Source: Obelidium mucronatum (taxonomy: Eukaryota; Chytridiomycota; Chytridiomycetes; Chytridiales; Chytriomycetaceae). Taken from it: a stretch of 64,000 bases of DNA. Location: assembly GCA_025765595.1 (NCBI GenBank), contig JAIVFH010000056.1:1-64000 (forward strand). The letters are read 5' to 3'. Within the stretch, counting starts at the first letter, position 1, and every line of letters starts with the position of its first letter. Of this stretch, positions 7,330 through 40,098 are shown piece by piece. A program made the translations under genes and the position numbers. The notes under the pieces are model-generated. The model had not been told where the DNA came from and ran no database searches. It saw nothing but the letters and a program-made list of their open reading frames with translations.

Positions 7330-8036
7330 CAGTTAGGATACAATTATAATAAACATTTATTTTTTCTTTTTTTTTAGTTTTTTTATCAGATTCTTTTTTC
7401 AGTTCGAAACAATGTAAGATCGCCGCCCCCCTCCCCTCCTCCCCTTCCCCCTGACCCCCAACCGCCGTCCCCTTACCTAACCCCTTCTTGTATCGTTTGG
7501 ACTCACTGGCTGTGCAGAGCAGTGGCGAGAGGACTTGAGGACGCTGGATCAGTTTGGCGCAATTGCATCATCTCCAAAGCACCCCCTGCTCCATCCCCCA
7601 CTGCCAAACCGGTGGTGGTGACTCTCCCACCCGATTCTGTAACTTTGACGCTTGTGCTGTGTTCGGTTCTCGAATAAATGTGTGTGTGGGTGAGAAGAGT
7701 CCCCAAGACTCTTTTCACAGGGGGGTGGTGATCCACACAAAAAGTTGGCAACACACCCAAAGTGGCTGTCACCGGGGCTGCACGCTCTAAAACCAATAAA
7801 TAAACTATCGCAAATATCAAAAATGATGATTGAAACATGTCCTTGCACGCTGGTGAAGAAATATTGAAACTGTCAATAGAGGAGTATAATTTATTAAAAA
7901 TTAAAAAGAAACTGTAATGTGTTATGTAAATGGTACTATTCATCCTCTTCGTTTTGAAGTCCGGAGTTCGATCCCACCCTTCGGCAACACTTTTTCAATT
8001 TTTTTTTAAAAACCAGAAAAGACTTTATTAACCAAA

Positions 8037-11000
8037 CTATGCAGCCATATCAATATTCTCCTGATTCTCCACATTTAATGCTGCAAAGTGGGAACGTACT
8101 AGCAATTCAAGCTTTGCCTGTTGGTCATGTATTAGAATCTCAAGATGATTTATAAAGATCTCACCTTGACAGCATTAGAGATACCTTTCACCCCCACTTG
8201 CTGCAAGATTTCCACCAATGCCGACTTCCGTATTTGTTGAAACTTTTCAACATCCAGTGCAGCTGCGCGCATTGTTTCAAAAAGTGGGGGAAGTTGGATT
8301 GCAGCTTGTTCAGATATCTCCTTTTCAGCTTGAGGTACCAGATTTGCAGCAGGGCACTGATTCCTGTTTTCCTCGTTTTCATCTGCTGTTTCAGACGCGT
8401 CTTCCTGATATGGAATTGGCAGCTTGGTGGTCTGGTTTGAAGGCTGAATTGCCGGGGCATTAAGTTTTGAACCAGCGGCAGTTTGTTTTGAAGGCTGAAT
8501 AGCAGAAGAATTTAAGAAAATCTTGTGATGGCGGTTGTGATGTGAACGAACAGACAATGCTGCAGGAGAAGACTTGTCACTGCGTGCAGCATGTCTTGCT
8601 GCACTTGAATTTGCCTTTGAAGTTGGTTTTGCCGTGTCTGGTGCTTCAGTTACTGGAGTGTTCCATTTCAAAGGGTCACTATACTGATGAGTCAGGTCCT
8701 CCGCCATTGATGCATAGGATGTCGTTTTCTTGTTCCGCTTTTTTAGATAGCCCTGCAATGTACCAGCCAAAGCTAAAGTGACGCGTGAATCACTGTCAGT
8801 CATCAACGATTCGGCAGCATTGATTCCAGTTGTAGCTCCAGTATGGTTGACACGCCCCATTGCTGCTGGCCCACAAAGCACCCGATTTACAGAGAATTTA
8901 GATTCAAGATCATCTTGTTGCAATGCTGTATGGACAATGATAGGCCACGCAGAGTTTTCTTGATTCCCAGGTTCAGCTTTAACTTGGTCAGTCAAGATCA
9001 GCAAGCCTTCCAATGATGCAATCAGATTCACAATTTGCTGAAATGGCAGTCTTGAGTGCCCCAGATCAATCTTGTCTGTTCCTTTGAGGAAACGATCAGA
9101 AAATGGAAGATTGGGGACATGCTGAGATGGCATATTTGAATAGAAGTACGGCATGGCCTGCAGCAAAAATTAGGTTTTGAATTATTATTACCAAATCACC
9201 TTACCATTTTCTTGATACAAGCTAAAAAAGTAGCACAACGAGCTGCTCTTTCCAAATCGGTAAGGCCGTTGTTGTGCATAGCTTCGTCAATTCTTCGAAG
9301 GTCCCTGGCAAAGTCTGCCTCCTTTTCAAATTTAAGTTCTCTCAAACCCAACTCAACAGCTGCAGTTGTGAACTCCTTTGCCATTTCAACATTTTGTGGA
9401 TCCCGATCCGCCCAACCAAGCGTGAAAATAGGATTAGTCCCACGTTCTGCAAGCGTCACCCATGCCTTGCCGCAAAGTTCATCAAATCCTCCTTGCCAGA
9501 TAGCTTCTACCAACCGTTTATAGCAGTGTGTCCAATCATACAGGAATACCAGTTTTTTACTTGGGTTGAAGGGGTTTGCCTCTGGCTGAGACAAGTAGTT
9601 GATGAAATCAATTCCATTTTCAAAAGACTCAATCAACGAATGGATAAAAAACACATATGCGCTCCATTGATTGATCTCAGGTATTGTGAGAGATGGAGCA
9701 GCAAGAGCCAGAATAATCCCAAAGACTTGTTGAGCCCACAGGACATTCCCATCAACGTCAACCAAATGAAGATTTTCACCAGTGAGATTATGCATGTGCA
9801 AAGCATCCTCAATAGCCCAAGCAGATTCTTGGGAGACAACACGTTTGGCAAGAGTAAGAGCCCTGCTCAACCATTTCTGCTTTTCTGATGAGGAGTTTGG
9901 CAGTAAACTCAGCTTGCGAACAGAAGCAACAGGGGTTTGGCAAGATAGGTAGTGATTTGAGTGCTCTTGATGAATGCAAGATACTTCTGAGATAAACTGT
10001 GGTAGGGCTTTGTCCAGCTGATCCAATAAAGCAGTCTTTTTGGCTGCACCTGATAAATCCCCCGCACATTCCGCAGCAGATAGTGCAGCGTTATTGTAGA
10101 GCTGAGTCACAGTTGTTGCCCGGTTCCATCCACGATTGATGAGTGAACCAATTCCAGCGCCATCTTGAGTAATCCAGCTAAGATGAATCCCACGTTTATC
10201 AAATTGTTCCATAATAGCCATCCAAATTTCACGACTAGTAGACTCATCAGTAGAATCAACAATATACTCTTGAACAATATCAGATATCTGCAGCCGTAGG
10301 GAGTCTGGGCATGTGTAGAGTGCAAGATGGGTTCCCCGAACTGCAGCAGCAAGACACATTGCAAGCAAATGTTCATCAGTTTCTTTCAGAATGCTTGAAA
10401 GTTCGACAGATTCATCCAAACACATTATTTCCGATTCTTTCATTTCGTCCAGCGTAGCAGGAAATAAATCATCATCATCGCCCCGTAGAGTTGACAGCAC
10501 GCTTCTGATTCTTTGACCAATTGATTCAAACGTAGACTGCAACAAAATGATTTTTTTCTGCTGTGATTCAAGGATGTCAATAGACAATGCTGCATTTCCG
10601 TGAATGGGCTTTGGTGCTAGTTTATTTTTTGATAAAGTGAACAATCAAAACATCTCTACGTACCATCATTATCAACGCCTTCCTTTTGTTGAGAAACCTT
10701 TTTGTCGAGTTTTCGCTGCTGATTGGTCAACAATTGTGAGAGGTGCAAGCTCAAACGGGACATCAAATCCAGGCTTGTTGTCAAACGAAGGTAAATTCTT
10801 CGTGGGAACTTTTCATTCTCAAAGAATAGAATGTCTTTTGGATCCTCAAGATCTTTAAGGTGTCCTTTTGTTTCATGAAGACTGTCATTCAGAATTTCTG
10901 TGAGCTATTTGTGAAATTATTAGTATTGCATCCATTAAATTGATCAGTTAAAGTAGGACAAACCCCTCGGCCATTCTTTGCAGCATACTCCTGCTTTTGC

Positions 11001-13073
11001 TTGAAAAGTGCCGACAAGTTGTCGTATCTCTTGTCAGAATGACCAAAAGCATTGGCGTCCGCTCGTTTTTTCTCATGAAGCCGTTGGAAAGTTCGAATAT
11101 CAGGCATTTGGAGAGCACCAGATCGATCCCCAGCAACATTCAAATGACTAACTCCAGGGTTGGTGTCAGCAGATACGCTGTTGCCACGGAGATGCTCATA
11201 GGCCTTGGTCCCACCAATTTTACACTGCCGCCAGAATTGGTACAAAAAGTCGTAAAGTCGATCAGAATAACAAAGGCGAGCTGCCATTCCAGATAGATTA
11301 TTGGCACAGTAAGCCTTGAGCTTATTTCAAGTATTAGTATCAAGAATTTAGAAACCAAACACCACCCGCAAAAATACCTGAGAGAAGATTAAATCAAATG
11401 CCAACAACCTTGGATTCAGACGACCAATGGATAGAGCAAAGAGCAAGGCATCAACCATTGCTGTTCTAGTCAACGGATTCGGGTCGCTTTTGTCCAGCTC
11501 TTGGATTAAATGAAGATGCCGACGTTGAGTGGAACCAAGAATAAACTTAATATATCGAAGCTCTGAACGGAGTTTTGAAATTGTACTTGTCAGATTTCTG
11601 ATTCGACAATTTGATGTTTCTAGACTGGAGTTCGCAGCTTTCAGAAGAATCTTCCGGGCAGATTCGCGTTTTTCCTCTGTCAAACTATCGGTGGCCGCCC
11701 CCTCAGACATAGGGACTTCTGGAGTAATCGCGGAATCCAATTGCTGAGCGCTAATAGGTGTAGAAGAAATTGGCAGCACTACCGTTGCATCTTGTGGCAC
11801 AAATGTTTTGGATTTCACAAGTTGGGTTACAAGGCCAAGAATCGCAAGCTGTGTTTCCACACCATTGGCTCGATTTTCTGGAAACAGAAGTGATTGCAGC
11901 AGAGTTTTTGGATGTGAAACCAGATAGTTGCGAATTCCCTCAACACTTGCAGCGTAGTATCCAGAAGTGCTTGCAGTGGTTCCAGTGAAGACAATTCCCG
12001 GATTTTCGAATTGCAAACGTGTGGATCTCAAACCAATAAGATTGGCAATTGGCTTGAGCTTGAAAAACGGCTCGTTTCTTGGAGGGAATACATTGACAGG
12101 TACAAGTACTGGCTTGTTCTTGAAGAGAATAGCTGTATTGTAGAAAGTGAGCAACGATTGTATTAGAAGCATAACGAGAAGATTACCACTGGAATCTGAG
12201 GGGGCAGCGTCCATTTTCGTCTTGCCTGCATTTGTTTAAACTGTCAAACTACACCAACAACCAACTTTAGTAATACAGCGCTCTCACCTTGTCCATCATC
12301 CGACTCAATTGGCTGTGGCGATTGGACTCGGCGCTTCTTTGGTATATTCTCGACAACTTCATTGTGTTTATCCTGGCTGGTTTCGGCTGTCACAGTGTCC
12401 ACCCCTGTGAAGCAAAAGTTAATCACATAAACAAGGTATAATAGACAAACGATGTTGTAGTGCTCGCATTAAAGTACTACTTTGCGAGTAGTTCAAGCTT
12501 GAACAGATAAACAATGCTTTTATAACAAAGCTTCCTAATTGTGATCATAGTCTATGTTTGTTTTCATTGTCAATTTGTGGTTCGAATGATTCCCGGAGAA
12601 GACTGAAACAACTACGGCAGCATCCTGAGATCGCAACACGTACGGGTAACGTTAAGAACAGAGATAGTCTTTTATGAACATAGATATTGTTTCCAATGTG
12701 CTTTGGTCTCTTTTATTCTGTGCGTGAATATCAAAACGCCGTCATCTCACCTTAGGTGCACCCGATCCAAAATCCAAATGGAGCATTCGACGCGCCTCCT
12801 CTGCGCCGTCTTTTTGCACCCTAAAAATCCAGGAAGGGGTGGGAACTGACAGGTCAGGAGGATTTTGAAGTTTTTTCTCATTTTTGCCGCTACACACATT
12901 TTTGAAAAAGGACCCGCTCACACTTTATTTACCTTTCTCAAACGCACACACGAACGATCTTAAAACTCGCTTCGCTCGCAATTAAAAAATTGAGCTCACA
13001 TATGCCCCGCCGCACAGCCAAAGATGCATTTGCTGCCTCTTCTCGTTGTTTCTTTTTTGCGCTGTTTGGTGCC
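8037..13073 (-). CDS. Multi-exon transposase (P/THAP9-like, tentative)
   Basis: Single gene filling the transposon. Readable exons are about 13073-12990 (ATG, Lys-rich start), 12860-12770, 12426-12294, a short exon near 12217-12185, 12140-11384, 11310-10940, 10905-10665, 10620-9196, 9166-8160 and 8108-8037. The splice between 12770 and 12426 is unresolved. No frameshift is seen in the large exons, so it may be active. Features recalling the P superfamily are an aromatic-rich GGTKAYEHLR with MPDIRTFQR, then ITQDGAGIGSLI, a LYDWTHCYKRL stretch in the place of the family's central His-Lys motif, and QDDLESKFSVNR near the C-terminus. No zinc finger was found. The last exon adds a short tail ending at TAG 8037-8039. 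A decayed relative lies at 33744-35540. The family call is inference; the transposase role rests on the flanking TIR and TSD. Confidence 0.55.
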
Positions 13074-13284
13074 ATTGATTTTTGGGATCTTTTTTTTCGT
13101 CCGAAGACCTTTTGAAAATCACTGCAGTGATTCAAACTGGAAAACTCCCCGAAAAACACCTGATAAATCAAAATAAAGATGAAACGACTTGCTTCCGGCA
13201 GTTATTGGTTCTGGTTGTGAAACTTCTATTTTTTCCGGTGATAAGTAAACTGTGGTTATCTTCGTATGTAGGACCAAATCGACC

Positions 13285-13522
13285 AAATTGGTAACGGAGA
13301 TGTCTGCGCATCACTTTTCCGCATCGATTGCGCTATTATTGAGACCGTTGGCATGCCTGTAGCGGGCCCTGATAGACTTTGAAATAAAAGTTTCTTTATT
13401 TATTTAAATTATATATGAATCTATATCGGAGATTTTGGTAACGGAGATCTCTGCGCATCAATTTTCTGCATCGATTGCGCTATTGCGGAAGGTGGTGGTG
13501 CGTCTGTAGCAGGCCCTGATAG
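13285..13522 (+). repeat. Two direct repeats near transposon end
   Basis: About 95 bp at 13285-13380 recur at 13432-13522 with roughly 80 percent identity (shared blocks GGTAACGGAGAT, GCATCGATTGCGCTATT, GGCCCTGATAGA). They are subterminal in the 5.9 kb transposon and could be transposase-binding sites. The first also reads as a short open frame after a possible acceptor, so a gene relic is an alternative. Confidence 0.6.
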
Positions 13523-13747
13523 AGCTGAAAGTTTAGGTGAGGGGGGGTACGTGGAAGTACCCCCCAAAGACGAAATTTTGCACTTTTTGTAAAAGTAGAG
13601 CGGGATCACCACCCCCCTGCTCTTTTCACCCAAAATTTTTTGTTGGGACTTTTTTCTCACCATATTCCCAAAAGCAGCATCCGGTCAGATTTAGACACAA
13701 AACGCGGCGTTTACGGCTATATTGTAGATTTTTTACATCTTTATTAA

Positions 13748-13765
13748 TCCCAGATAGTATAGTGG
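13748..13765 (+). pseudogene. tRNA-Asp 5' half (interrupted gene)
   Basis: TCCCAGATAGTATAGTGG is the acceptor 5' strand, linker and D-arm start (the box A region) of a tRNA-Asp. Its acceptor pairs 7 of 7 with the 3' half at 22061-22113 on the same strand; together they give a 71-72 nt tRNA. The 75 bases upstream (13670-13747) are non-coding and resemble 196-271. The left element's terminus ends just before them. Confidence 0.75.
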
Positions 13766-14188
13766 CGAATATGGGGTGAGAAAAAAGTCCCAACAAAAAA
13801 TTTTGGGTGAAAAGAGTCCCGGGGACTCTTCTCACCCACACACACATTTATTCGAGAACCGAACACAGCACAAGCGTCAAAGTTACAGAATCGGGTGGGA
13901 GAGTCACCACCACCGGTTTGGCAGTGGGGGATGGAGCGGGGGGTGCTTTGGAGATGATGCGATTGCTCCCAAACTGATCCAGCGTCCTCAAGTCCTCTCA
14001 CCACTGCTCTGCACAGCCAGTGAGTCCAAACGATACAAGAAGGGGTTTGGTAAGGGGACGGCGGTTGGGGGTCAGGGGGAAGGGGAGGAGGGGAGGGGGG
14101 CGGCGATCTTACATTGTTTCGAACTGAAAAAAGAATCTGATAAAAAAAAAATAAAAAATAAATGTTTATTATAACTGTATCCCAACTG

Positions 14189-16127
14189 CTACAATCCAAT
14201 CTTCTTATAGTAAGCTATAACTTTGCCGTTGGCTATAACTTTGTTTTTTTGAAACCCCACGACTTGAAGCCCATCCAAAGAAACCGCTCGCGAGATAGCA
14301 ACATACACCTGGCCAGGTGCAAAGGTGCGGCTCAAATCCACCTTTAGGTACCGAATGGTTTGGCCTTGGCTCTTGTGAATAGTCCTGAAAAAAGGAGTAG
14401 ATGACGCTCAAAGGAGAGAATATTTTTAAAAAAAAGCTCACATCGCATAAGCAAGACAAAGAGGGATCTAAAAAAAGAATGATTTACTGAAGAAGAAAAT
14501 TATACAAATCCCATACCTGCTCAAAGCTTGTCTCAATTCCAGTGAATGTATCTGAAAAGGACCACACTTCTGGTTCCAGTGTCCTCGTTATTGCAGGCGC
14601 GGACCCAACGGCAGCAAACTTCACAGTGACTTTTCTTTCGTTGATGCACACATCCTTGACTGTCCCGATGCTTCCGTTTGCGAGACCATCGCCGAGGTTC
14701 TTCACAAGCATAACCTGCGCGCCAACCTTCAACTCCAGCAGCTCTGGTGCAAGTACCCGGCCCACCAGCTCCCGCAACTTCACAGCGTTTCCAGTTAATT
14801 TTGCAAAGAAGCCGAAAGTGTTTCCGCTCAAGGCCTCAAGATGCCCCAAGTTGCAGCGATCGACTTCGTCCCTTGTAGAAAACCTGAAAAGAGGAAATAA
14901 CGAAAGTAAATGAAAATAAAAAAGAACTACCCCAACTAACTGACAGCTGGGTCGGCTTCAGTCCATCTGGGCAAGCAAGTTCCCTGGAACAGGACCGCAT
15001 CAGTGTTTCCGTTTTAGACGAAATCGCGTTTGCCCCATAACGAATCTCGTTGAGAGCGTCAATAAAATCAGTTTCGGATTGGCGATATATCTTCGTGAGC
15101 TGCAGATAGAATTAAAACCCATAAGCGATGAGCAACAAACACATACCGCTACAACACCATCCTTGAACAAGGACGACCAAACGCCGCTCTCAAACGCAAA
15201 CTGAGCCAGTTTGGGCGGCTTTACTACTGGAGGGAGTTGAAGGAAGTCTCCACAGACAATTAACTAAAAAGAAGAAAATGAGTCAAGCGGCGCAATAAAC
15301 AAAAAAAAAAAACCTGGATTCCCCCAAACAGCCCGTGCTCCGTACGCAGCGAAGCTGCAACGGAATGAAGATCATCGAAGAACTGACCATTAACCATTGA
15401 AACTGGATTAGGAGTGAGATTAATTGTAGAGCGAAAACAATGAAGACCTCACCTTCATCCAAGATAAGAACCTTAACTTTCCTCCAGCGTTTCTTTGCCG
15501 CTTCGCTCATATTTTTAATCATGTCATAGGCATGTTCTGCAAAAAATTGGTTAATTGGCAACATGGCGCGAGACAGGTATTTTGTAAAACATACCCTCTC
15601 CCAATCCACATCCAGCAAACGCATGAATAGTTTGCCCGTCAATTTGAAGTGCGGCGATCCCTAATTGGTAAGTGCGATGAGCTAAAGGATCGCAATAATT
15701 ATTCAAACATTACTTATTAACCTGTTGATGCTGTCACCGCTACCATCCCATCGTCAGGAAACTGTTGACGACATAGTTGGATAATTCTCTTCAGAGTGTG
15801 AGACTTCCCCGCTCCTATTATTGGTAAACCGAAGGCCTTAATAAAATAAACAATACACCAGGAAGCGACTTAAAAAAAAAAGAGCTCACCAGCTTTTCCA
15901 GTAAAGAATACGCTTTGACCTTGAGCAACTAGGGTGAGGATATGATGCTGCTGTGCGGAAAGGCCCTCCGCGATCGCTTGGGTAATAGTTATTTCCGGGT
16001 TCGTTGGTTGTTGCTGGCGCCGCTGTCGCTTAGGAAGAGATGGCTGTGAAGTGCTGGAGATACTAGAGAAGACCGCATTGGTGCGAAGAGTTGCTAGGGA
16101 CGTGTAGTGGGGAGAGAAGGTGGTCAT
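14189..16127 (-). CDS. PIF1-family DNA helicase
   Basis: ATP-dependent 5'-3' DNA helicase of the PIF1 family (superfamily 1B), here transposon-borne and probably assisting element replication or excision in the nucleus. The start is the ATG at 16125-16127. Motifs in order: GLSAQQHHILTLV (Q-like lead-in), Walker A FFTGKAGAGKS split by an intron near 15830-15893, VTASTG, the Walker B region VLILDEVSMV (split near 15400-15455), GDFLQLPPV, TKIYRQSE, the conserved DLSRTFAPGQVYVAISRA, and HKSQGQT near the C-terminus. Six to eight short introns with T-rich acceptors are inferred. The stop is TAG at 14189-14191. It lies about 190 bp downstream of the recombinase stop, same strand, with its own start and an intervening AATAAA-like stretch, so it looks like a separate gene. 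No inactivating change is seen, unlike the copy at 5921-7329. Confidence 0.85.
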
Positions 16128-16314
16128 TTTGAAAGAATATTCTTTTTCAAAAAAAAAAAACTATTAACGTATTCTATTTCGATAACACTTAAAACTAAAA
16201 ATGCGTGTTTCAAAAAGTATATAGGATATCACGAAAACAAGAATTGAAATTTTATTTCATCACAGAAATCAGAAACTTATCAGGAATAACAAAGATCACA
16301 ACAACAAAAAAAAA

Positions 16315-19300
16315 TCACTTTAGTAACTTCATACTAACAGGAAGCGCAGAAGGAAAATTAGTCACTCTCGACATTGCAGAAATACTAAATACATCAGCTT
16401 TTGTCAGCCGATCTGTCTTCAAGAATCGAGGATCCAACATCAACTCAGCAAATGCGGTCTGAAGTTTCGCATTGCGAGAGTCAGCATCCAGCGCATCGTA
16501 CTGCTCAAGAGTCAGTTGAGCCTTGTCAAGAACAAACCATCCAACCCTGTTGTAGTTCATGAACTGTTTCTGCTTCGCAGTATTGCCAAATATGGCTGTA
16601 CCATGTCGACTACCAAGAACAGCGAAAACAAAGACCAGGCCCGAGAAGAATTTGTGTGGCCTATTATATTTTAGCAAATATCCAGCAGAAGAAAACAGTA
16701 TTACCTGAGCAAGACCAACAGAGCTGATAACTGGAAAGGTGACAGTAGGAACGTTATCTTTGCCGCGGTCACTGGGTGAGTAAGGACGAGCGTATGTGGC
16801 ACAGAGGCCTTCAGCTTTCGCTGTAGACCGGTTGTAAGACAGGAGGAGGTTGGGCCCAAACAGTGCCAAAACGAGGAATGGCAGCAGGTGGAGGTTCTTC
16901 GACTTGAGGAGCGTCACGCGGATTATTTTGAGTATCGTCATTGGCAATCAAATTAGATTGGGCGCGATCGGCAGGAGGCGCATTGCGGTCCATATCACTG
17001 CTGATGAGTGTGGCCATAACCCGCTCAAGAGCTCTCGTGTTTTCATGGAGCTGGTCCTTGTAGGGCAACAGAGCAGCCTCCAAAGCCTGGCGGATAATGT
17101 CGGGAAGGCCACTGATTTCGTCTTGAAGGTTTTGCGGCAAGCGTCCAAGTTGTAAACTTGCAACTTGTTCATCAGAGAGACGAACAACAGTCGCAGTGGG
17201 GGAAGTTGCAGTGTGCCGATTAGGTCTCTTTGCGGTACTCATTTGCTGTTTCCACGCAGCGTACTTTTCTTCTTCAACAAACACATTTTGGTAGAAGTCT
17301 TTCCACTCGTCAGTATCGAAAACTCCGCCACCGCCAGCTTTAATGGCTTCAACTATTTGCAGAAAAGTTAGATGAGGTCATATTCATAAAAGAAAGTAAA
17401 AGAAAGATATAATACCAACCAATGTCTGGAGTAACGGCCGCAGACACAATTGGACACTTTGCAATATGGTAGAAAAGGGACGCCAAACCATAAAGGAAAG
17501 ACTTGCGAATGTGGGCCAGAGTTCGTCCTAAAGCTGGCAGCGAAACAACCCCACTCTTTAAATGGTGGGCGTTGGCTTCGAGAACCTCGGCAGTAAGTTC
17601 TTCATCCGAATCCAAATCCATAAGACCAATAGCTTCGTTGTGATCTTCCACCTCATCCACGGTTTCACGAAAGATAGGGTCATCGGGGTTCTTGACCTTG
17701 TCCTCGAAGACACGCCAGAGAGGAAAGAAATGAGACAGCAGTGCTTCCGAAGGTTCGGGAGCACGGAACCTTGGAGCAATGAACTCGCCGTCTTGATTAC
17801 CATGCGGCCACATTCCAGTACTATACTGGACAACTTCTCTTGGATACTCTTTGAAGTAAGCCGTGTGGAATGCGGACTTGGTATTCTTGTTGTCACCAGT
17901 AAGCCAACCGATCCGCTCAATAGGCTCCGTTGGCACGCCTGCTTCGCTCATTTTCTTTGGCTGAATCTTCCGGAAAATATGGAGACACTTGTTCATGATG
18001 GCGACTCCAAGCGCAAGATGCATATTCTTCACCGCTTCCGAGTGTGCTGAAGACGACATCTCCGATTTGACTGAAGCTGCTGTGAAAAGCTTGATATTCT
18101 TGATCACTGAGTATCCTTTCTGAAGTTCACGCGCTTTCTCTGGTCGGTTTTGCACGTGTTGCTCAAAGTACTCCATGAACCCAACAGAGAATTCAAAGTC
18201 TCGTAAAGGATCAAAATGAGGTGCGACGATAATGTAGCGCTTGTCATTTTTCCCCTTTTCGGCTAAAAGAGACTAGAGAAGAATTTAGTCAACACAGTAA
18301 TCAATAAATAAGAAATACATAGAGTCCACAAAGCCCAAGGGCCGCTCTATTATTCCGTTTGGAGTAATATTGCAAGTAAAGCGCCACATTCCCGTTTGGG
18401 AACATAGAACATCCAAGGACAAGGAGGGGTTTGATACATAAAGGACAAAAACATACCGCAAGCTTGGTTCCATCAACCAGGATTTTGGTTGCCATGACAG
18501 TTTCGGCCATGTAGCCGTCGGCATTTGTGCGGATTTCGTAAGGTTCCGAGAGTAGCCGAATGAGATTTAGGGAGCGCAGTTCAGATCCGCGACCACAGGA
18601 AACATGACTGAGGTTGTGCATGCACAAGTCTCTGGCGGCACCGGGATGTTGGTTGTTTCCCTTTTTAAGTAACCTTCCAAGAAAGTAGCAGCGGGACCGT
18701 ATCTCGTAGTCCTCAGTAGTGTGCTGGAGAATTTGACGTTCGAAGTTGTCGTGAATATCACGGTCCATCCTGTTGAAACGGTTTAGCAAACTATGTTAAG
18801 TACCTTAAATATAACATACATGTCCTTGCGACGTACAGACGACTTTGTTGCGGAGGTCTCAATGGCAACATGTGAGTCATGCTCCCGCTTATCTTCGCAA
18901 CCAATAATTGTTTCAGCTTCATCTTGGGTCACAAAGCAATTGGACAGCTTAGCAATGAGACATAAGTGGAGATGCATTGCTTTTAACGCGCCCTTCATGT
19001 GTCAAAGTTAGTTATATGACCCACAGGTGGGATCGAAGGCAGGACACATACCCACTTATCGCCTAGCTCAGTCGTTTGCTTGCCACTGCGATTCCGCTTG
19101 AAATCACTAGCAAAAGCTTCCATAACCAGAGTGACGTACTTTCCCTTCATGAGATACTTGTGGTCTTCGTACAGGTCGGGTGGGGCAGAGGCCTCCTTTA
19201 GTCGAATTTGTCGAATGATTCCGGGCATGTGATCCTGATGTCCAATTAATTACGATTGAACAGAAAGAAAAATAAGAGAAATACCATATAATCAACCCAA

Positions 19301-20994
19301 CAGCGGATAGCAGTACCAAAGCCATTAGCGGCTTTTTGGGGATCCTTCGAGGGTTTCGGTTTCCAATAAGCCAATATTACTGAGACGCAATTTGCGCGAA
19401 CAATTTGACGCTGGTTTATGTCCATCACAGTCATGAAATTGTCGGCAAGGCTGTTTATGAATGGCTCCAGTTGGGGAAACCCGCGGGTGAACAGGGCATG
19501 GGCATAGAGGAATGGTCGGTCCGCAATAAAAGTGCCAGTAACTACGATAAAGCACATTAAAAATAAAGAATTGGTTTGGTGAGTGAGCGACGTACCCTTT
19601 TCATCAATGCGGTCCCTCATTCGTTTCAATACTTGACCATGCTCAAATTGTTGTTGGTAGCCTTGAAGACCCGTGATAGTAATGATTCCAGCGAAAGCAT
19701 CAGGAAGGTCCAGCTGCCAGAAATTGTTCGACCACGCATTTCGGGTATTTGGGAAGAACAGCTGCTTATCGGCGGCAGTGAATTCGCGGCGCACGGGTGT
19801 GTCTGGCGGGGAAGCTTGGCCAGTAGCAGCAGCCAAGTGAGACCCGAAAGAAGGTTGGTGCAGCTTGCGGCCACGCGGTACGGACGGCGCTTGACTGGAA
19901 TCAGCAGAATCAGCGGGACGGCGGCGGCGGGATGGCGGGCCTGCAGCATCTTCGTCCGCGTCACTGAAGTCCTCAGCATCGCCGTCGTTAGCCCGGGAAC
20001 GCTTGCGCTGGCTTTGGTTGGGTTGGCGGGCAGCTCGGGTGGGTCGCGAGGTAGGCTGCGATGCTTGCTGGGCGTGTGCGGGGGCTATCCCGCCGGCAAA
20101 CTTGAGTGCAGGAGTGGATGAAGAGGGACCAGAGCCATTAGGAGCCACGGATGTAGAACTGGAGCCAGGGGCATTTTGCGAGCAGGGTAGACACTTGCCA
20201 AAAGTCGAGCAGCGCGAAGGAGGGCCGTGGACCCAGTGGATGTTACCGTCGTGGGATTGTTTGCACAAGTTCAGGAAACTGACGTCGTTGGTGTTGGTGG
20301 TCTTGCATGCGGCGCACTTAAGGGGACAGGTTGGGTGAGGGTGGAGTTTTAGTGAGTGTTTTTCGGTTAGGCTTGACAGGTGAAATGAAAAAATTGAAAA
20401 CATGGCGGGCAATTGGCAGTGCTTGGCAGGCACGCATTGTGAAATGTAAATGAATCACTTACAAATCTTTGCCATGCATCCGCCTCTTCGTCATACTTCC
20501 ATCCATTCTTAATGGTGCCATCGCTGTGGCTCCAACCATTTGCTTCTAGAAACGCGCGTTGGAACTTGCCGAGGACCTTACCATCGGCAGAGAGACGGAC
20601 AGGCGCCAAGATTGGTGGTGAGTCCGGTGTAATCGATGGCAACCAAGTTCCATCTGCTTGCTTGTGGGCCGCGACGATGGTCATTTCTTAAAATCATAAA
20701 GATAAGTTTTTTTTAAGTGTTAAAACCAAGCATCACTTACTGACCTTCCATTAAGCTCTCGTGATAAGGACGCTCGCGACTGTGCAACTCCAGGTATTCG
20801 TCGAGACCATCACTGTCATCGTCATCATCCCCGTCGTGGTCTGTGCTGTCAATATTCGAGGCGATATTGCGATAATACTCGGAGTCGCTGGAATCGATCG
20901 GGGGAGGGGGCTGAAACCGTTTGATTTGCGCTTGAATTGCGCTATGGTAGCGATTGTTGATTGCTGGAGGGATGTACGCGATTCGGTTGTACAT
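16315..20994 (-). CDS. Crypton-type tyrosine recombinase (Ndc10-like)
   Basis: Multi-exon gene from the ATG at 20992-20994 to TGA at 16315-16317. The acidic N-terminal exon is joined to a small domain (GWSHSDGTIKNGWKYDEE), then a Cys/His cluster (CAACKTTNTND...CSTFGKCLPC, likely zinc-binding), a basic Ser/Pro/Ala-rich linker with nuclear-localisation-like KRSR and SRRRR, and a long helical region. The catalytic part shows box I GRGSELRSLNL (Arg), then HIFRK (HxxR) and FHTAYF (Tyr nucleophile about 40 residues later), the spacing expected of tyrosine recombinases. The region after the Tyr (PREVVQYSTGMWP, FIAPRFRAPEPS) is in the style of Ndc10/Crypton proteins. The C-terminal part is Gln/Pro-rich with helical segments. 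It should catalyse site-specific excision and integration; the tRNA-Asp insertion suggests its target. About ten introns were placed only approximately. Confidence 0.7.
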
Positions 20995-21169
20995 TTGAGT
21001 TGTCCTTGTTACATTATTTAGTACGTCGAAGCATGAAATCGTGAATTTAAATAAATGACTTACTTTGAGACTTTGATTAACTTTGTTGTTCTTGTGTTTC
21101 GTTATTTTATCCTTTGTGTATTGGACACTACGCACGATGTTTTGACAACAACGGCGCCGCCCAAAAAAC

Positions 21170-21520
21170 TACTTTCGAAAGTTGAAACGAATATAATAGA
21201 TATATAAACGAACATACTTTAAGTTTGGGCGTCGATGGGTGGTTTTTCGTTGTGTGTTGGACTGTTGATACTAGTAGTCAAGTTTCTCGGAAGTAGCGTT
21301 AGACTAAAATAACGCTGTTTTCGAAAGTTAGAACAAGGATAATAAATATATAACATAATAGTACTTAAAGATCAAGGGTTGGTTGTGTCGTTGGCGGCCG
21401 GTGGTTAACTTTCTGGTTGCTGTGTATCCAAGGTCTCGGAAGTGGCAATAAAACACTAAAAACCTATTTTCGAAAGTTAAAGCAGTAATAATAACTATAA
21501 AACATTACGGTACTAGAAGC
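21170..21520. repeat. Three tandem subterminal repeats
   Basis: The block TTTCGAAAGTT followed by an AT-rich stretch (ATAATA...TATAAA) and a G-rich tail occurs at about 21173, 21318 and 21467, a period of 145-152 bp with moderate divergence. Each begins with the palindrome TTTCGAAA. They lie just upstream of the recombinase start and could be promoter units or binding sites for the element's own protein. Confidence 0.7.
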
Positions 21521-21667
21521 ACAGGCGTTGGTTGGCCTTTGGTACGCTGTTGGGGAAGCGGCGGCAACGTCAACGAAAAGGCAAGTTAGCTGTTCAACAT
21601 AGAATGAAATACATTAGTAAATGATAGGGCAGTAAAGGATTAGCTGAAAGGATTGGCCAGTTAAGCG

Positions 21668-21775
21668 CGGACTTTCTTTGGCCAATACCCTGGACTCAAG
21701 GTATTGGCTGAAAAAAGTCCGGGACTTTTTTTGGCCAATACCCTGATGTCAAGGAATTGGCAGAAAAAAGTCCCG
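21668..21775. repeat. Two tandem hairpins
   Basis: Two consecutive imperfect hairpins of about 54 bp. In each, GGACTTT..TTTGGCCAATACC pairs with the following GGTATTGGCTGAAAAAAGTCC; the second is a diverged copy. The GGGACTTTTTT core is shared with the element termini. They are inside the right element, about 290 bp from its 5' end. Confidence 0.75.
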
Positions 21776-22060
21776 CCCGGTCAACCACAAGGAAATCTCC
21801 CCCCCTTTCCACCACATGGGAAAAATAATGTAGCGATGGTTTTGGCAGAGTTTGGCACTTATCCGACGAGTTTGAAATTTCCTCAACACATGGTATACAC
21901 ACTTGACACAACCCACCGTAACACCCCCAAACCACCCCCTACACCCCCCAAATCACTCCCCATACCCTTCAGTAACATATAGATACTTTGTAGTGTGTTA
22001 TATTATCGATTGTGTGTGTCTCTCTATTGGGACTTATTCCTCACCATCATTATGGAGGGC

Positions 22061-22113
22061 TAGTATCCGCCCCTGTCACGGGCGAGACCGGGGTTCAATT
22101 CCCCGTCTGGGAG
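22061..22113 (+). pseudogene. tRNA-Asp(GUC) 3' half (interrupted gene)
   Basis: The anticodon arm CGCCC-CTGTCAC-GGGCG gives anticodon GUC; the T arm CGGGG-TTCAATT-CCCCG contains box B, and TCTGGGA plus discriminator G closes the acceptor. The bases before TAGTATCC do not form the D arm or acceptor; the matching 5' half lies 8.3 kb upstream at 13748-13765. The gene is therefore split in the D loop, separating box A from box B, and should not be expressed unless the element leaves. Confidence 0.8.
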
Positions 22114-22150
22114 GTCTACAATTAGCTTTTGCTTGTGGATGATAGGCAGG

Positions 22151-22595
22151 TAAGGTGAGAACGGGGCGGGGTTGGGGGCGAGGCAGGACTTTCCCCGCAT
22201 CTCTGGGGGTCGGGGTCAGGATTTCCCCGCGCCATGCGGGGCAAGCCTCGGGGCTGTGGCTTACCTCTGGCTGTGTGTGTATTTTAGAAATAAAAACAGA
22301 AAAACTTTTTTTTTTAATAAAATTCCAAAGAAAAAATTTTTTGTTTTTTTTTTTCATAAAATAAATAAAATTCAAAAGAAAAAATCCTAACTACAGTCAA
22401 ATTGCTGCCCGAGAGCATGTAAGTGGCCAAAAATCACACTAAAATGCCAGCTAAATTGGCTTTTTATAGAGATTTTATCTTACCTCGTGGGAGTGCGGGG
22501 AGTGCGAGGCGGGGTTCAAGTCGACCCCTACCCCGGACCCCGGAGCTTTGGGGCAGGGGTGCCCTGCGGGGTGACCCCGCCCCGTTCTCACCTTA
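22151..22595. mobile_element. Non-autonomous hAT-like element (445 bp)
   Basis: Terminal inverted repeats of about 22 bp begin TAAGGTGAGAACGGGG at 22151 and end with its complement at 22595. The flanking TAGGCAGG is duplicated at 22143-22150 and 22596-22603, an 8 bp duplication as made by hAT transposases. The ends are very GC-rich and contain further CCCCGC/GCGGGG palindromes; the middle is A/T-rich. It has no coding capacity. It landed 37 bp past the tRNA-Asp 3' half. Confidence 0.85.
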
Positions 22596-22603
22596 TAGGC
22601 AGG

Positions 22604-23487
22604 AATATATAGTTGGAGAATACAGTTCACATTTTGGTATCTAATCCATGCAACGTTACAGTCTGTTTACAAACTATAACATGAACTATAACATTGCTTG
22701 AAAGTGTCTTTAGCCCAAAATGTAAGTGTTCTATGTGAGAGTAGATGTGTACCTATTATGGCAAGTCGCAACTTGAAATTGCTCCACTCCAACATATCCA
22801 GAGGCACAAGCAAATGATATATCAGTAAGGTAAAAATTCCATCACGTGGACTTCCAGGAGTTCTGGAAGCGCCGAGTGAAACGTCTTCTTGGCGCGCTTC
22901 GGAACATTTTGGAAAACCAGAGCAAAACAGAAATCTTGGTGATTTGGGATAGATAACACATTGTGTTTCAAATCACCAGGTGTGTACTTCAACATATTTA
23001 CTTCACATATACATAATTAAGGGTTTTATGAAATAAACACATTGTGTTCCAAATCACTAGTATCAGAGAACACACACATCAATGTGGTGTAGATGCTGAA
23101 GCAATGGAGTCTCATCTTTGAAGATAGGATCATGACCTGCAACTTGCCTTGCTGTGCAACTCCTGTGGCGTAGCAATAGACTACATTACACAGAAAATCA
23201 CAGAGTGAGTGTTGTGTGGCATTGTTTGGTGGCACTGGTGGACTTGAACCTGGGACCTAGGTGGGCAGAGTTGTAGCCATTGATTGTTGGAAGAAGATAT
23301 TGTAACAAAATGAAAAAAATGTTCTTTTGGACTATTGCAAATTTATTGGGAGAAAGGTGCCAGCTTGATAAGAATTACTGCAGGCTACTTAGAGAATCAT
23401 AGCTCAAGGCATAGGTTCTGTATGCACTACTAATGGGCTGCTCTGAGTAATTAATGTTTTCACTTGTTGTTTCTTATTCAAGGATAT
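22604..23487. other. Non-coding, one tandem duplication
   Basis: No gene is recognised. A segment containing ACACATTGTGTT followed by CAAATCAC occurs twice, at about 22950-22980 and 23036-23061, on an 83 bp period. A diverged inverted repeat lies at about 22845-22915. Confidence 0.5.
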
Positions 23488-23560
23488 GGGCGTATGGCAA
23501 AATGGTTACCGCGCTTGACTACGAATCAAGAGATTCCAGGTTCGACCCCTGGTACGCTCG
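23488..23560 (+). tRNA. tRNA-Arg(ACG)
   Basis: 73 nt. The acceptor GGGCGTA pairs with TACGCTC (one G-T). The anticodon arm CTTGA-CTACGAA-TCAAG gives anticodon ACG, read as ICG. The T arm CCAGG-TTCGACC-CCTGG is perfect, with a complete box B. No intron is seen. It appears functional. Confidence 0.9.
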
Positions 23561-23614
23561 TGTTTTGGATGGCTGGGAAGATATGGGGATTATAGGGTAT
23601 AAACTGGATGTGCC

Positions 23615-23686
23615 AGGTCGTATCCGGATTCGAACCGGAGTTACTGGTATCAAAAACCAGGGTGATGACCACTAAACTATACAACT
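23615..23686 (-). tRNA. tRNA-Gln(UUG)
   Basis: 72 nt on the minus strand. The anticodon arm CTGGT-TTTTGAT-ACCAG gives anticodon UUG. The T arm TCCGG-TTCGAAT-CCGGA is perfect. The acceptor AGTTGTA/TACGACC has six pairs and an A-C mismatch at the first position, unusual for tRNA-Gln but compatible with function. Confidence 0.85.
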
Positions 23687-23699
23687 CTAATTTAGCACT

Positions 23700-25338: not shown

Positions 25339-26060
25339 AGTTATTAGCCCAAACAGCTCGGCTTATGTTGTTATGTGCTTTGCGAATGCGCAGGCTGTTT
25401 GGCTTCTCTTTGTTGGTTATATCAAAGCGTTTGATCGTTTGATGTCTCAAAGTTTCAGGTGTTTCCGATGTAGTTATCACTGAGACTGGCGACGCACCGT
25501 GGCGCCCTGATAGATCTGTGATCAGAACAAGTCCTTTGATGTCGTCACCAAGTTTGGTGAACGAGCGCCTTGGGGCGCCGAAGCGGTTGACTTGTTTGTG
25601 GTTTGACAGGACATCGATCATTGCTCCCTAGCGTCGAGTTACGGAATGCTCTGTGGATTTACGATCCTACTGATCATGTAACAAAACGCTGCCGTTTTTT
25701 CGGTAGGTTTGCACCTGCGTGTGTTGTTGCAATGATAGTGGTGTTGCTAAATTTAGAACCACTCGAGAGCAGACCCAACGTCGTCGAACTCATAAAAGAA
25801 TGCTTTCTTTATGTTTTAGTAGTTGTTTATTCAATAAATAGTTATCTCTAAGCTATGTAGTATGCAGAAAAGAGTATATTTGGTTGGATCATTGTGCGTA
25901 ATGATCACGTCCTCAGATGTGACGGCCTGCACCAAAATTGCTTTCGAAAGCGGATTTTGGGTGTTTAGGAGCATTTCTTGTGTTGAGACGATTCCTAGGG
26001 TTCTCGCTATTGTTTGAATTTAACGCCGTCAGACGGCGTTATTGTTCTCCAAAACAAAGG

Positions 26061-27224
26061 ATGTCAAAAGACCAAGACGCAAAGCCAGAGAATAAGCGCA
26101 TCCTCTTGAGTGAAACTAACTATCCAGTATGGAAACGTCTGACGTTGACAGAGATAGGTCAGTTGAACAAAAGAACTCTGGACGCAAAGTTTGTCCCATT
26201 CGTAAACAAACGTGTTCAACCGAACCCGCCGGAGGCGTTGTTGCAGAAACTCGCATTGTTACCAGACGAAAGTGGGAAAACTATAGTGTCTGTTGCCAAA
26301 GAAGAGTCGGATGACCATGGCGACAACAATGACGAAGACGCGGAAGCTGTTGAAGGGGATGAAATCCCATCAGCTCAGACGATCAAAGAGTGGAAAGCAG
26401 TCTACCAGCAGTTCGAACAGTTGGATAAGATCTGGCAGACTCTAGATTGCCACGCAAAGGACAATGCTGATGCGGTTCAGACAACTATGCAAGCCATCAG
26501 AAGTGGATTGACAAGGTCAATGCAAATTTCCTATTCCAGGTTTGCCACTCCTGCTGAGTTATGGGCAGAACTTCAACGTATGAAGGACCCTGCTAATCGC
26601 AAGATGGATAGTTTGGTTGTGGACGCGTATAAGGCTTATATCAAGGAGATTCGCGACGTTGAAGATAAGTGCACCTCTTTGGGTGAAACTCTTCATTTGG
26701 GATTCGACTCACAAAAGAAGGTGCGCTTGCGGTTGGATCATCGATTTGCTCAAGCGGTGATGGCCCTCAAAGTCCAGGAATATCTGTCCATCGAAGAGTT
26801 GGAGCAGAAAATGGTGGATTTGTGGGACAGTTACGTTGAAGCAAACAAACGTAAAGCTCCAGTCGCAAAGGTCACGACCACGCGCCATGCTGATAGAAAG
26901 CAGCAAAGTATGGGCTCCCGACAACAGAAGAACGCTAAGAAATCACAGAAAGTGGCTTTGAAACAACGAAAGTTTCCGAAGTGCGATGACTGTTCTGGAT
27001 TTCAAAACCCAGAGTGGGAATGCGGTTCTTGTTGGGAATGCGGTGATACTGATCACTTCAGTTCTTCGTGTCCTCAAAAGAAGAAACGTTTTAAAACCAG
27101 CGGGGGAGGAGAAAAACCCAAGGGGACTCCCGCAATTCAGTCAAACATGGCAAAAAATGATGTTGGAATCGAACCTAAACATGTCGGTTGGACGCCTGGG
27201 AATGGAATTCTCAGAAACGCTTGA
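26061..27224 (+). CDS. Copia gag (387 aa)
   Basis: Nucleocapsid polyprotein forming the virus-like particle that packages the element's RNA. The start at 26061 (ATG, MSKDQDAKPENKRILL) is chosen because upstream in-frame sequence lacks an ATG-based gag start. Typical of copia gag are the N-terminal NYPVWK motif (Trp-Lys after a Tyr-Pro), a long helical UBN2-like region (QISYSRFATPAELWAEL), a basic linker, and one CCHC zinc knuckle CWECGDTDHFSSSC near the C-terminus. The frame is intact, and identical in the copy at 44033-45196, although pol is broken. A stop separates it from the protease. Confidence 0.85.
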   Translation: MSKDQDAKPENKRILLSETNYPVWKRLTLTEIGQLNKRTLDAKFVPFVNKRVQPNPPEALLQKLALLPDESGKTIVSVAKEESDDHGDNNDEDAEAVEGDEIPSAQTIKEWKAVYQQFEQLDKIWQTLDCHAKDNADAVQTTMQAIRSGLTRSMQISYSRFATPAELWAELQRMKDPANRKMDSLVVDAYKAYIKEIRDVEDKCTSLGETLHLGFDSQKKVRLRLDHRFAQAVMALKVQEYLSIEELEQKMVDLWDSYVEANKRKAPVAKVTTTRHADRKQQSMGSRQQKNAKKSQKVALKQRKFPKCDDCSGFQNPEWECGSCWECGDTDHFSSSCPQKKKRFKTSGGGEKPKGTPAIQSNMAKNDVGIEPKHVGWTPGNGILRNA

Positions 27225-27361
27225 ATGTTTATTGTTCTTTTCTTCTCAAAATTCAGTTTTTCTGGTTGTTTGTGATTGGGTTGTTTTGTTGTTGCTTTTA
27301 AGTAAAATCGCATTGTTGTTTTCCATTGTATTGTTAAGAGACTTTGAAAAAAATGTCACAA

Positions 27362-30300
27362 CTCTACGAAGGGATCTTGGATCCTGGATGCAACAAGACG
27401 CTGATTCCGAATGCAGATTGGTTTGAATCCTTCAAGGAGGTATCGATCAACATTGGCGTCACAAAGAAAGGCACTTGCCTGACGGGTACAAGGCGTTGTT
27501 CATTTCATCATAAATGGGCATAGGATTACAATTCAAGATGCAATTTATTCTGTGGATTGTACTACTACCTTATTTGCCAATGTTGATATACTTGCTAACA
27601 ATCGCGATTGGGAATATAAGGTGGACTTGAGCGGAGCGTTTTTCTTTGACAAGAAGATGCGTCAAGTCTTATTCAACGCGAAATTGGCACCTTCTGGTTT
27701 GAAGATGTTGCAATTCGAGGTTGTTAATCGAGTTTTCGCAAACGCGGTGACGATCAAGGTTGATTCGCGTCTGATTCACCAAAGATTCGGTCACCCAAAC
27801 ACAAAGTACTTGATGGCCATGATTTATCGTGGTTCACTTAATTCAGACCAGTCTAAGTCGATCGTGATTGACGACAAGCATCAATGCGAGTCGTGTGTTG
27901 CTGGGAAATTTAAGTTGGCCAAAGTTGGTTCAGAGTCGGTTGGACTGTAATCAAGGCAACTGGCCCAGGCGAAATGTTACATGCCGATGTTACAGGCAAA
28001 TTCGCGGACGGATTCTATTATAACGGTCAGATGTACCATTATTTTCTAATTGTCGTGGATGATTTCTCGCGTTTCTCCTTCTTAAGGTTACTTCAACGCA
28101 AGTCGCATGCCTTAGCCGAACTACTGGTAGTGATGGCTTTAATTGATCAGACCGTGCAAAGACCAGTTCAGGTTTTGCGGATGGACAACGGGAAATTGCA
28201 ACCTACAATCGCTTCATAGAAATCTGCGAAGTTAGAGGGATTACGGTTGAGACCATTGTGGTGGATTATCCACAGTTGCTGAGCAGACTATTGGTCATGT
28301 GAAGAATATGTCTCGGACAATTCATATTCACGCGTTGTTCTCCAAAGAGCTCTGGGGATACGCAGCCATCATCGCTAACGATTTACGTTATTTATGGCCA
28401 AACCAGCACAATGATATGGAAAGTTTGTTCTTGTGCTATTATGGCATAAAACCTGAGATAGGTCATCACTGAGTCTTTGGGTGTAAAGTTCTTGTGCCTG
28501 TCTTCAAGAAGGGCAAGAAGGGAGAATTGTCAGCGGATGTAGCTACAAAGATTTACGTTGGACATCACATTCCGTCGATTATAAGATGCATCAACGATCA
28601 TGGAATGCTGAGTTTTCACAGATTCCAAGATTTCCAAAGTTGAAGTCTAAGACCGGACGCATCAAAGACAAGATTACTGAGTTGCAATTGCCGGAGGAAG
28701 CTCAGGAAGTCCTTACTGCAGAAGGAGAAAGGGATTTTCGCTCGGAGTTAGACGATACGTTAGCTCAAGCGGTAAATCTGCGCAAATGAAGTTTATTAGA
28801 AGTCAACCTGCCTGAAGAACAGGGGGAGGGAGATTCTGATAGCCCGACACGAAGTGAGAGTCCTAGCATTATCCGTCAGTCGCGACGTAAACGTGCAAAG
28901 GATATGCTGAGGAATCAGGTAGCGAAAGCAAAGATTCTCAGGAAGTAGACGAGGATTCTTCATCGGATTACGAGGACTCTCCCGAGAACCTAGGCTATCA
29001 TGCTATGTTCTGTCAGGCAGAGGTAATCAAAGGAAGAGATCCGATTTGAGTTAGTAAGAATACCCGGCGACTCTTGTATATATTGCTTGAATGCGTCAAG
29101 TAAGTTCCCAAATGCTACTGAGTACAGGCTTGGATTGGGATGGGAAGATTCCCTTAAGACATAAAGATGTATACTTGACGGGGAATGTTAAAGAATGGTT
29201 GGATGCAGAAGGCGCGGAGTACGCGAATATAGCAAATCATAGTACACACAATGAAATGCTTGAGCGTGACGTGCCTTCTGGAACGGAGATACTCCCTACT
29301 CAGAAAATCTACGCTGTGAAGAACGGGAAAGATTTGCCAGAGGGTAAGGTGGAGAAGTTCAAGATGCGCGAAGTAGTGCGAGGCGATTACCAGAAATATG
29401 GGGTCAATTTTGTTGAGAGGTATTCCCCGGTAATCAAACTGACCACATTACGGTTCTTGATAGCGACAGCTGCCTGGTTTGGACTTGGTCTATTCCTAGC
29501 AGATGCTGTGGGTGCGTATTTGAATGGAGTTCTGGACGTGATAGTCTATGTTTGACTGCCCCCGAGTTACAAGTAGAAAGGAGTAATTTGGCGTTTACTC
29601 AAAGGTTTATACGGCTTGAAGCAAGCTGGTTTACTTTGGTATCGCAAGTTATGCTCAATCCTTGTCGAACTTGGTTTCTTGCAAACATTCGCGGATCCTT
29701 GTTTATTCGTCAAAGTCGTTGATGGATTTACGATATGGGTCGCGTTTTATGTTGATGATATTCTGATTGTCTGTCACGAATCAATTGTGGAGTCAATTGT
29801 CGCTGCGTTGAAGTCAAAAGTTGACGTCAAGTATCAGGGCCGTTATGAATACCATTTGGGACTTGAACTAGAGTATGCGTCAGATCAAAGTTATATCTTC
29901 ATGCATCAGGCAAAGTACATGGAGCGTATCTTGAAACGATTCAAGATGGAGAAGTGTAGTGGGATCACTACCCCATGGAGACTAGCGCTGATTATTCTGT
30001 TCAAAAAGATGATGAGCAACCCTTGGATGCGTCAAAGTATGACTACAATGCGCTAATTGGTAGTATCATGTATCCCTGTGTTGTAAGTCGATTGGACATG
30101 TCGTTACGTGTAAGCTTGTGGGCACGTGCGCTCGCGAAGCCAACTCTGCGTCATTGGAAGGGTGCCAAACATATTCTGAAATATGTGAAGCATACTTACG
30201 ATTTGGGCATTGTATATTTCCGTGTGCCAAATCCCGTTCCAAAGCAGATCCATTTCGTTGAATTAACGGACGCGTCTGAACCGGACAGTGCAAGCAGGAA

Positions 30301-40020: not shown

Positions 40021-40098
40021 ACAGGGTTAGGGTTTCATGCTGTCATATAGGATTGTTACTTCTATTTATACTTACTGAGCATGTCCAAGATAGGATGC

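Follow-up and report, generated by a model that had tools for sequence, protein, structure and literature searches.

How does a tRNA-Asp gene come to lie in two halves, on the same strand, with more than 8 kb of other DNA between them? The question is raised by the window analyzed here, which comprises the first 64 kb of contig C56 (233,744 bases) in the assembly of the chytrid Obelidium mucronatum (48.3 Mb, 694 contigs). An earlier note, made from the letters of the window alone, had proposed that an element, here called Y, was inserted by a eukaryotic recombinase into the D loop of the gene and thereby separated box A from box B. Our analysis confirmed the split tRNA-Asp around Y, and the arrangement is beyond chance, given a second copy of Y and a different element, Z, that interrupts tRNA-Gly. 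Very probably, Y is a mobile DNA element that encodes its own tyrosine recombinase (YR) along with a PIF1 helicase; it would be site-specific for the D loop of tRNA genes with the box A sequence GTATAGTGG and disrupt the gene that it enters. The first reading was thus largely right, and the tRNA-Gly case gives it much stronger support.

The split tRNA-Asp gene and the copies of element Y

The two halves in the window (at 13748 and 22060) are present as described and, when joined, give a tRNA-Asp(GTC) of 72 nucleotides (nt) that is called by ARAGORN; at the junctions of this first copy of Y taken singly, the program called no tRNA at either. Ten of the 20 intact tRNA-Asp genes found in the genome agree with the joined 72-mer in every letter, and the remaining 10 differ from it by one base. 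The acceptor strands, TCCCAGA and TCTGGGA, pair in 7 of 7 positions (by eye), and the imperfect inverted repeats reported at the outer ends of the element were also found. The break follows directly after GTATAGTGG, which we take to be the end of box A; the GG of the tRNA D loop is invariant. Rfam searches reported no half tRNA either in the window (E up to 0.1) or in the stretch L076 (E up to 1).

A genome search with the left end of Y returned three ends, belonging to copies 1, 2, and 3 (copy 3 in two pieces), and the right end returned copies 1 and 2 only, apart from the tRNA itself. Copy 2 (C114:90370-98667, tRNA halves included) shows 95.3% and 96.8% identity to copy 1 in two large BLAST blocks, is preceded by the same 18-nt 5' half and followed by a tRNA-Asp 3' half, and is cut at the same base, with an identical first element base after AGTGG despite the different 5' flanks. 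Another copy of Y therefore ends in the D loop of another tRNA-Asp gene. The inverted copy 3 abuts, with its left end at 13670, the non-tRNA site GCTTTTGG, 77 bp upstream of the 13748 half; therefore, the tRNA piece is not part of the element, the alternative that the earlier note had itself named. On its other side, an internal truncation joins copy 3 to a tRNA-Asp 3' half at nt 20 (position 4117).

The flanks show where the earlier note was correct and where it was not. Intact paralogues sharing the 5' flank of the 13748 half exist at C166 and C69 (79% and 75% identity over 77 bp, respectively), both leading into an intact tRNA-Asp. The 3' flank of copy 1 is 96.6% identical over 1102 bp to an intact tRNA cluster on C114, from which approximately 445 bp of it (22150-22594) are missing. 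Since the flanks of the two halves belong to two paralogue families, a single insertion into a single gene does not describe the locus, and this part of the claim did not stand; what did stand is an element with a recombinase-like gene in a tRNA-Asp D loop, between box A and box B, with neither junction rebuilding a tRNA. The halves were reshuffled, either by recombination between element copies or by the recombinase. The 3' flank of the C166/C69 type lies at 2717-4064, on the 3' half joined to copy 3 (96.9-97.4% identity over approximately 1.1 kb and 76-87% nearer the tRNA), and this half, at 4065-4117 on the reverse strand, is probably the 3' counterpart of the half at 13748. Copy 2 has a 5' flank that matches the one at the intact tRNA-Asp gene C56:230414 (91% over 1460 bp), whereas on the 3' side its flank, like that of copy 1, is of the C114 type.

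Between copies 1 and 2, there are 23 substitutions in 21003-21818 (2.8%), none in 21819-22060 (where one indel occurs), a single one at 22061 (tRNA nt 20, T/C), and none in the 1583 bp of 22062-23644 (four single-base indels). This near-identity from 21819 rightward indicates a recent exchange of the right flank through recombination at the right junction or close to it.

Element Z in tRNA-Gly and a common break point

A further tRNA-Asp 3' half was found at C205:38179-38231, and the DNA joined to it recurs at C161, joined there to a tRNA-Gly 3' half. This DNA is element Z, which spans 8.5 kb (C161:28865-37382) between nt 1-18 and nt 19-72 of tRNA-Gly, with TTATT at both junctions. When the flanks of the C161 copy are joined across the tRNA, all 295 bp match an intact locus, C33:127582-127874, at 93%, and this locus reads as the empty site of Z. 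The joined flanks are called as a tRNA by ARAGORN, and neither Z junction alone is. Thus, Z ends in tRNA-Gly as Y does in tRNA-Asp.

The Z copy at C205 has the same left flank as that at C161, but is joined to the tRNA-Asp 3' half, which makes it another chimera; the two copies are nearly identical inside, and C161 and C205 are nearly identical over approximately 10 kb. The overlap at the C205 junction reads TTAGT; its nt 19 agrees with Z/Gly and its nt 22 with Asp, which places the making of this junction within nt 19-22. Concerning its relation to Y, no match was found between Z and the DNA of Y in the window, and tblastn of the Y proteins against Z gave nothing better than E 0.8. Z encodes its own recombinase-like protein, P0003, which differs from that of Y, and the longest inverted match between its 250-bp ends is 9 bp.

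The genome-wide survey covered tRNA-Asp, tRNA-Gly, and tRNA-Gln. Twenty of the 23 tRNA-Asp 5' halves lie in intact genes and three are broken; the 25 matches to the 3' part comprise 20 intact genes, four halves, and one tRNA-Glu. For tRNA-Gly, 18 of 19 matches are full length (one from nt 2) and one is a 3' half from nt 19, while 18 of the 20 5' halves lie in intact genes and two are orphans (C161:37383-37400 and C205:46758-46775). The sequence GTATAGTGG before the break is common to tRNA-Asp and tRNA-Gly. In tRNA-Gln, which has TTTAGTGG or similar, none of the 26 matches was a 3' half, orphan 5' halves not having been searched. All 10 half-gene ends (five 5' and five 3', some of them mutual copies by their flanks) break within tRNA nt 16-23 and are joined to several partners. 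Chance figures for the coinciding break points (5/72 each) were calculated but are not relied on, as they assume an independence that duplicated copies lack.

Table 1. Positions of the features of the window that concern element Y and the tRNA-Asp halves
Feature	Position	Strand	Remarks
tRNA-Asp 5' half, nt 1-18, TCCCAGATAGTATAGTGG	13748-13765	+	Ends at the 3' end of box A (break after GTATAGTGG)
tRNA-Asp 3' half, nt 19-72, CTAGTATCC...GTCTGGGAG	22060-22113	+	Box B side
Element Y, copy 1	13766-22060		8295 bp with the ambiguous terminal C counted on both sides; copy 2 (C114) aligns with it from the tRNA 5' half to past the 3' half
TATGG near left end	13770-13774	+	Same word near right end, 22051-22055 (by eye)
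Left terminal inverted repeat, GGTGAGAAAAAAGTCCCAA	13775-13793	+	17/19 identical with right end
Right terminal inverted repeat, GGTGAGGAATAAGTCCCAA	22027-22045	-	17/19 identical with left end
PIF1-like helicase gene, intron-containing	14189-16127	-	Spliced by eye; exons by tblastn
Gene A, 10-exon model, 1190 aa, C-terminal tyrosine-recombinase signature	16705-20994	-	Coding may run on to 16318
5' flank of tRNA-Asp, C166/C69 paralogue family	13671-13747	+	75-81% identity over 77 bp to C166, C69, and C56:197-271
3' flank, C114 tRNA-cluster family	22114-23696	+	tRNA-Arg 23487-23561, tRNA-Gln 23614-23687
Y copy 3, inverted, without the right part of the element	4118-7718	-	93.8-97.8% identity to copy 1, 91.6-94.4% to copy 2 (two pieces)
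Y copy 3, left end	13620-13670	-	Split off by a 5.9 kb insertion (7719-13619); abuts GCTTTTGG, non-tRNA
tRNA-Asp 3' half joined to copy 3, one base different (nt 34)	4065-4117	-	3' flank 2717-4064
Further tRNA-Asp 5' half with one mismatch and a D-loop break	272-289	+	Joined to inverted copy of local upstream sequence

Several further observations concern the neighborhood of these features. The insertion that divides copy 3 holds open reading frames (ORFs) at 9196-10644 and 11348-12214, which have no Pfam matches, and two copies of an 89-nt sequence, at 13288 and 13435, that are 82% alike. A sequence beginning GGATACTATCGGTGAGC was considered as a second element and rejected: all four of its genome matches lie only beside tRNA-Asp sequence of the C166/C69 family, so it represents either the old end of an element or flanking sequence of these loci, and we do not count it among the elements. 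Short palindromic repeats (GGTATTGGCTGAAAAAAGTCC/GGACTTTTTTTGGCCAATACC) occupy 21669-21775, close to the right end of Y; by eye, a comparable stretch precedes the tRNA-Asp at C33:320530 on its upstream side. Elsewhere in the window, 25346-32487 and 38760-45911 form a 7.1 kb inverted repeat of 99.65% identity, tRNA-Ile genes lie at 31226, 39946, and 46232, and the ORF at 25938-27224, which is of a zinc-knuckle, gag-like type, has a weak Pfam match below cut-off. The stretch L030 (C114:17000-26999) contains a tandem repeat of approximately 4.7 kb, with units carrying tRNA-Asp, -Arg, -Gln, -Leu, and -Ile. On C203, C176, and C88, tRNA-Asp (and tRNA-Gly) genes with similar flanks stand in opposite orientation, the Asp pairs being 13-20 kb apart, which suggests inverted duplications around tRNA genes.

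Gene content, recombinase lineages, and known systems

The product of gene A is at least 1190 aa long after splicing, and its reading is open throughout. The motif GRGSELR and the aligned K lie in exon 7 (18769-18457), and HIFR, W, and Y lie in exon 8 (18272-17420). Copies 1 and 2 of the gene show 51 synonymous and 25 nonsynonymous differences over 1181 codons, nine gapped codons being excluded, which gives a ratio of nonsynonymous to synonymous rates (dN/dS) of 0.14. Copy 2 contains no stop codon, and the ratio shows that the gene A protein was under purifying selection. The second gene of Y, read with splicing by eye, matches the Pfam families PF05970 (E 4.2e-39) and PF21530 (E 1.7e-7); domain searches with the unspliced ORFs of Y gave nothing above the curated cut-off, and the PIF1 match emerged only after splicing. 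No reverse transcriptase domain was found among the scanned readings of Y or Z (short ORFs being only partly scanned), no capsid-type match among those of Y, and no DDE domain among those of both elements.

Concerning the identity of the recombinases, the C-terminal part of gene A aligns with four further O. mucronatum proteins, namely the predicted protein P0002 and three open-frame readings, two of which were joined by eye across neighboring frames. In this Y-type alignment, K, H, W, and Y are present in all five members, the first R in all four that cover it, and the R of HxxR in four of five; the relative without the second R is the same one that does not cover the first. P0003 of Z shares 26% identity with a homologue in Phlyctochytrium bullatum, and R, E, K, HxxR, H, and Y are invariant in both. 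Accordingly, the Y lineage and the Z lineage each have in one protein the R-K-HxxR-(H/W)-Y residues, which we take to be the catalytic residues of tyrosine recombinases.

Profile and structure methods gave weaker signals. An integrase family was the best PHROGs match for four of the five proteins scanned from both lineages, weakly in each case (E 0.0024-0.25), and the recombinase exon of the window's own Y had no integrase match in that scan. One of the five Y-type members has a weak match to NDC10_II (E 0.22), a protein derived from Cryptons according to part of the text of PMC3212892. Nothing above the curated cut-offs of Pfam and NCBIfam and no match in the PDB was obtained with either recombinase, and the matches of the homologue searches were confined to O. 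mucronatum plus one protein of another chytrid. AlphaFold models of the YR exon (three sequences, pLDDT 33) and of P0003 (two sequences, pLDDT 32) were too poor for a fold search. Comparison of the Y-type with the Z-type family profile was likewise weak (probability 22%, E 0.001). There was no Pfam match to GCR1_C in the spliced Y protein or P0003, and no match to DUF3435 in the scanned recombinases of Y and Z. Distant recombinase relatives of 25-54% identity occur in the same genome at C16:63-941, C33:220408-221067, C66:138804/C176:22678, and C144:49580/C366:2566; in the DNA examined around them, none could be tied to tRNA junctions.

Among known systems, tyrosine recombinases of bacteria and archaea often use tRNA genes as attachment sites, and prokaryotic tRNA-targeting elements usually bring along a piece of sequence by which the tRNA is restored, whereas no tRNA is rebuilt at either junction of Y copy 1 or of Z at C161. 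Starships possess a captain YR with DUF3435 and large cargo, whereas Y and Z lack a DUF3435 match and measure 8.3-8.5 kb.

The published elements are compared here as far as the available portions of each paper describe them. Cryptons (CryptonF, CryptonS, and others; PMC3212892) are, as Y and Z appear to be, fungal DNA elements encoding a YR, and they too have no reverse transcriptase. Their short terminal direct repeats of 4-6 bp are the presumed crossover, a pattern that the TTATT of Z may fit. However, Cryptons have no terminal inverted repeats, while Y carries an inverted repeat of 19 bp together with a PIF1 gene, and CryptonF has a GCR1_C DNA-binding domain; the words "tRNA" and "helicase" are absent from the main text of that paper. 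Dada transposons of fish (Dada-tD, -tA, -tV, and others; PMC8869645) are also DNA transposons inside multicopy tRNA genes, including tRNA-Asp, but they use a DDE transposase and make target duplications of 6-7 bp, whereas Y and Z have a YR-like gene, the D loop as target, and a repeat of 3-5 bp; the described Dada-tV insertions, some in tRNA-Asp, lie in the anticodon arm (PMC8869645). The retrotransposons DGLT-A, TRE5, TRE3, and Skipper-2 (PMC5006619) also target tRNA genes, but insert approximately 15-100 bp beside the gene, and Y and Z lie inside it.

Other YR systems choose multicopy host sequences of another kind. The YRs of nimaviruses (PMC10871703) are found at telomere repeats or 28S rDNA and, in the text available, none is at tRNA genes; CryptonV, as cited in PMC8869645, targets microsatellites rather than tRNA genes. 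Many Polinton-like viruses encode helicases and a YR for integration, but they are 14-40 kb long and have capsid genes (PMC12220804, PMC12747079), and one survey reports that its insertions had no tRNA genes nearby (PMC12220804). Two reviews (PMC7175516, PMC13269885) mention Cryptons and, in the portions at hand, no tRNA insertion by them. Our literature search of open-licence papers, including searches on chytrid Cryptons, found in the text available no report of a eukaryotic YR element at tRNA genes; in the same body of papers, searches for a Crypton with PIF1 and for O. mucronatum returned no paper. Y and Z, which appear to carry a YR gene, cut tRNA-Asp and tRNA-Gly genes at one fixed point, a kind of target familiar from bacterial integrases but, as far as we found, not from eukaryotic recombinases of this type.

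Origin of the reshuffled halves and proposed mechanism

It might be asked whether the tRNA halves are att-like parts carried by the element instead of a broken host gene. The same 18-nt 5' half and a 3' half accompany both full-length Y copies, as would be expected of a carried piece. However, the 5' flanks of copies 1 and 2 differ, each matching one that stands beside intact tRNA-Asp genes, the 3' flank is that of an intact tRNA cluster, the left end of copy 3 has no tRNA piece, and Z at C161 bears tRNA-Gly halves and has an empty site. On this evidence, carriage by the element appears largely refuted, and we consider it extremely improbable. An assembly artefact, or coincidental pseudogene fragments, might be suspected in an assembly of 694 contigs with tRNA-rich repeats and probable duplicates or haplotypes such as C161 and C205; nevertheless, overlap assembly would not be expected to produce new junctions at which 2-5 bases are shared, and the break falls within the same few nucleotides in tRNA-Asp and tRNA-Gly, on four contigs (C56, C114, C161, and C205), in two elements, and with one full empty site. 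Such an origin of the junctions is therefore very unlikely.

The mixed flanks could be due to ordinary homologous recombination between copies normally inserted in different tRNA genes, the recombinase having performed the insertions only, and to this account we would give an even chance. It leaves the D-loop targeting intact and needs no extra activity, crossovers would be easy between copies as alike inside as those of Z, and the distribution of substitutions between Y copies 1 and 2 places a possible exchange point inside the element, near its right end. However, it needs parental copies that were not found (Y in the C114-cluster tRNA-Asp with its own 5' half, a full-length Y in a C166-family tRNA-Asp, and Z in a tRNA-Asp gene), and it leaves unexplained both the truncation of copy 3 ending at tRNA nt 20 and the 5' half at C56:272, which is joined to inverted upstream sequence with no element between. 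Alternatively, the recombinase itself may swap partners at the D loop, exchanging halves of different tRNA genes at the core after GG and thereby producing inversions and translocations, which we regard as a serious possibility, if somewhat short of an even one. In favor of this exchange are the 10 half-gene ends that all fall within nt 16-23 with several partners, the mixed overlap TTAGT at C205, the T/C difference between Y copies 1 and 2 at nt 20 followed by 1583 bp without a substitution, and the C56:272 half, whose partner at that same point is its own upstream site in inverted copy. Yet recombination between element copies or later rearrangement could account for most of these cases as well, the T/C difference at nt 20 is common among tRNA-Asp genes, and the T at nt 19 in C205 may be the own end of Z. 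Homologous recombination between copies explains most of the reshuffling; a putative recombinase-mediated exchange would explain all cases.

Returning to Y as a site-specific element of tRNA genes, the following mechanism can be proposed as the simplest one. The YR, which presumably has the catalytic role, would excise Y as a circle joined at its ends, with the GGTGAG inverted repeats possibly serving as its binding arms. The circle would then recombine with the short stretch that follows box A (tRNA nt 19-23), and integration would leave a short direct repeat or overlap and separate nt 1-18 of the gene from nt 19-72. The intermediate may be replicated or unwound with the help of PIF1, and Y may still be active. 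For the host, the loss of one tRNA gene would be cheap because many tRNA gene copies exist. Z, with a YR of another lineage, would use the same point in tRNA-Gly. We tentatively suggest, as a possibility more than an expectation, that two YR lineages both settled on the box A/D loop of genes transcribed by RNA polymerase III, and that their recombinases also exchange halves of dispersed tRNA-Asp and tRNA-Gly genes, breaking and rejoining chromosomes there.

The elements would provide a eukaryotic counterpart to the use of tRNA genes by integrases in bacteria and archaea, with the gene disrupted and not repaired. They suggest that multicopy genes transcribed by RNA polymerase III are a safe haven for tyrosine-recombinase elements too, besides retrotransposons and DDE elements, and the choice of the same nucleotides by two different recombinases makes a rule for tRNA targeting testable. 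A YR specific for box A would offer a compact integrase for site-specific insertion into fungal genomes, and the reshuffled halves suggest that tRNA genes are hot spots of recombination.

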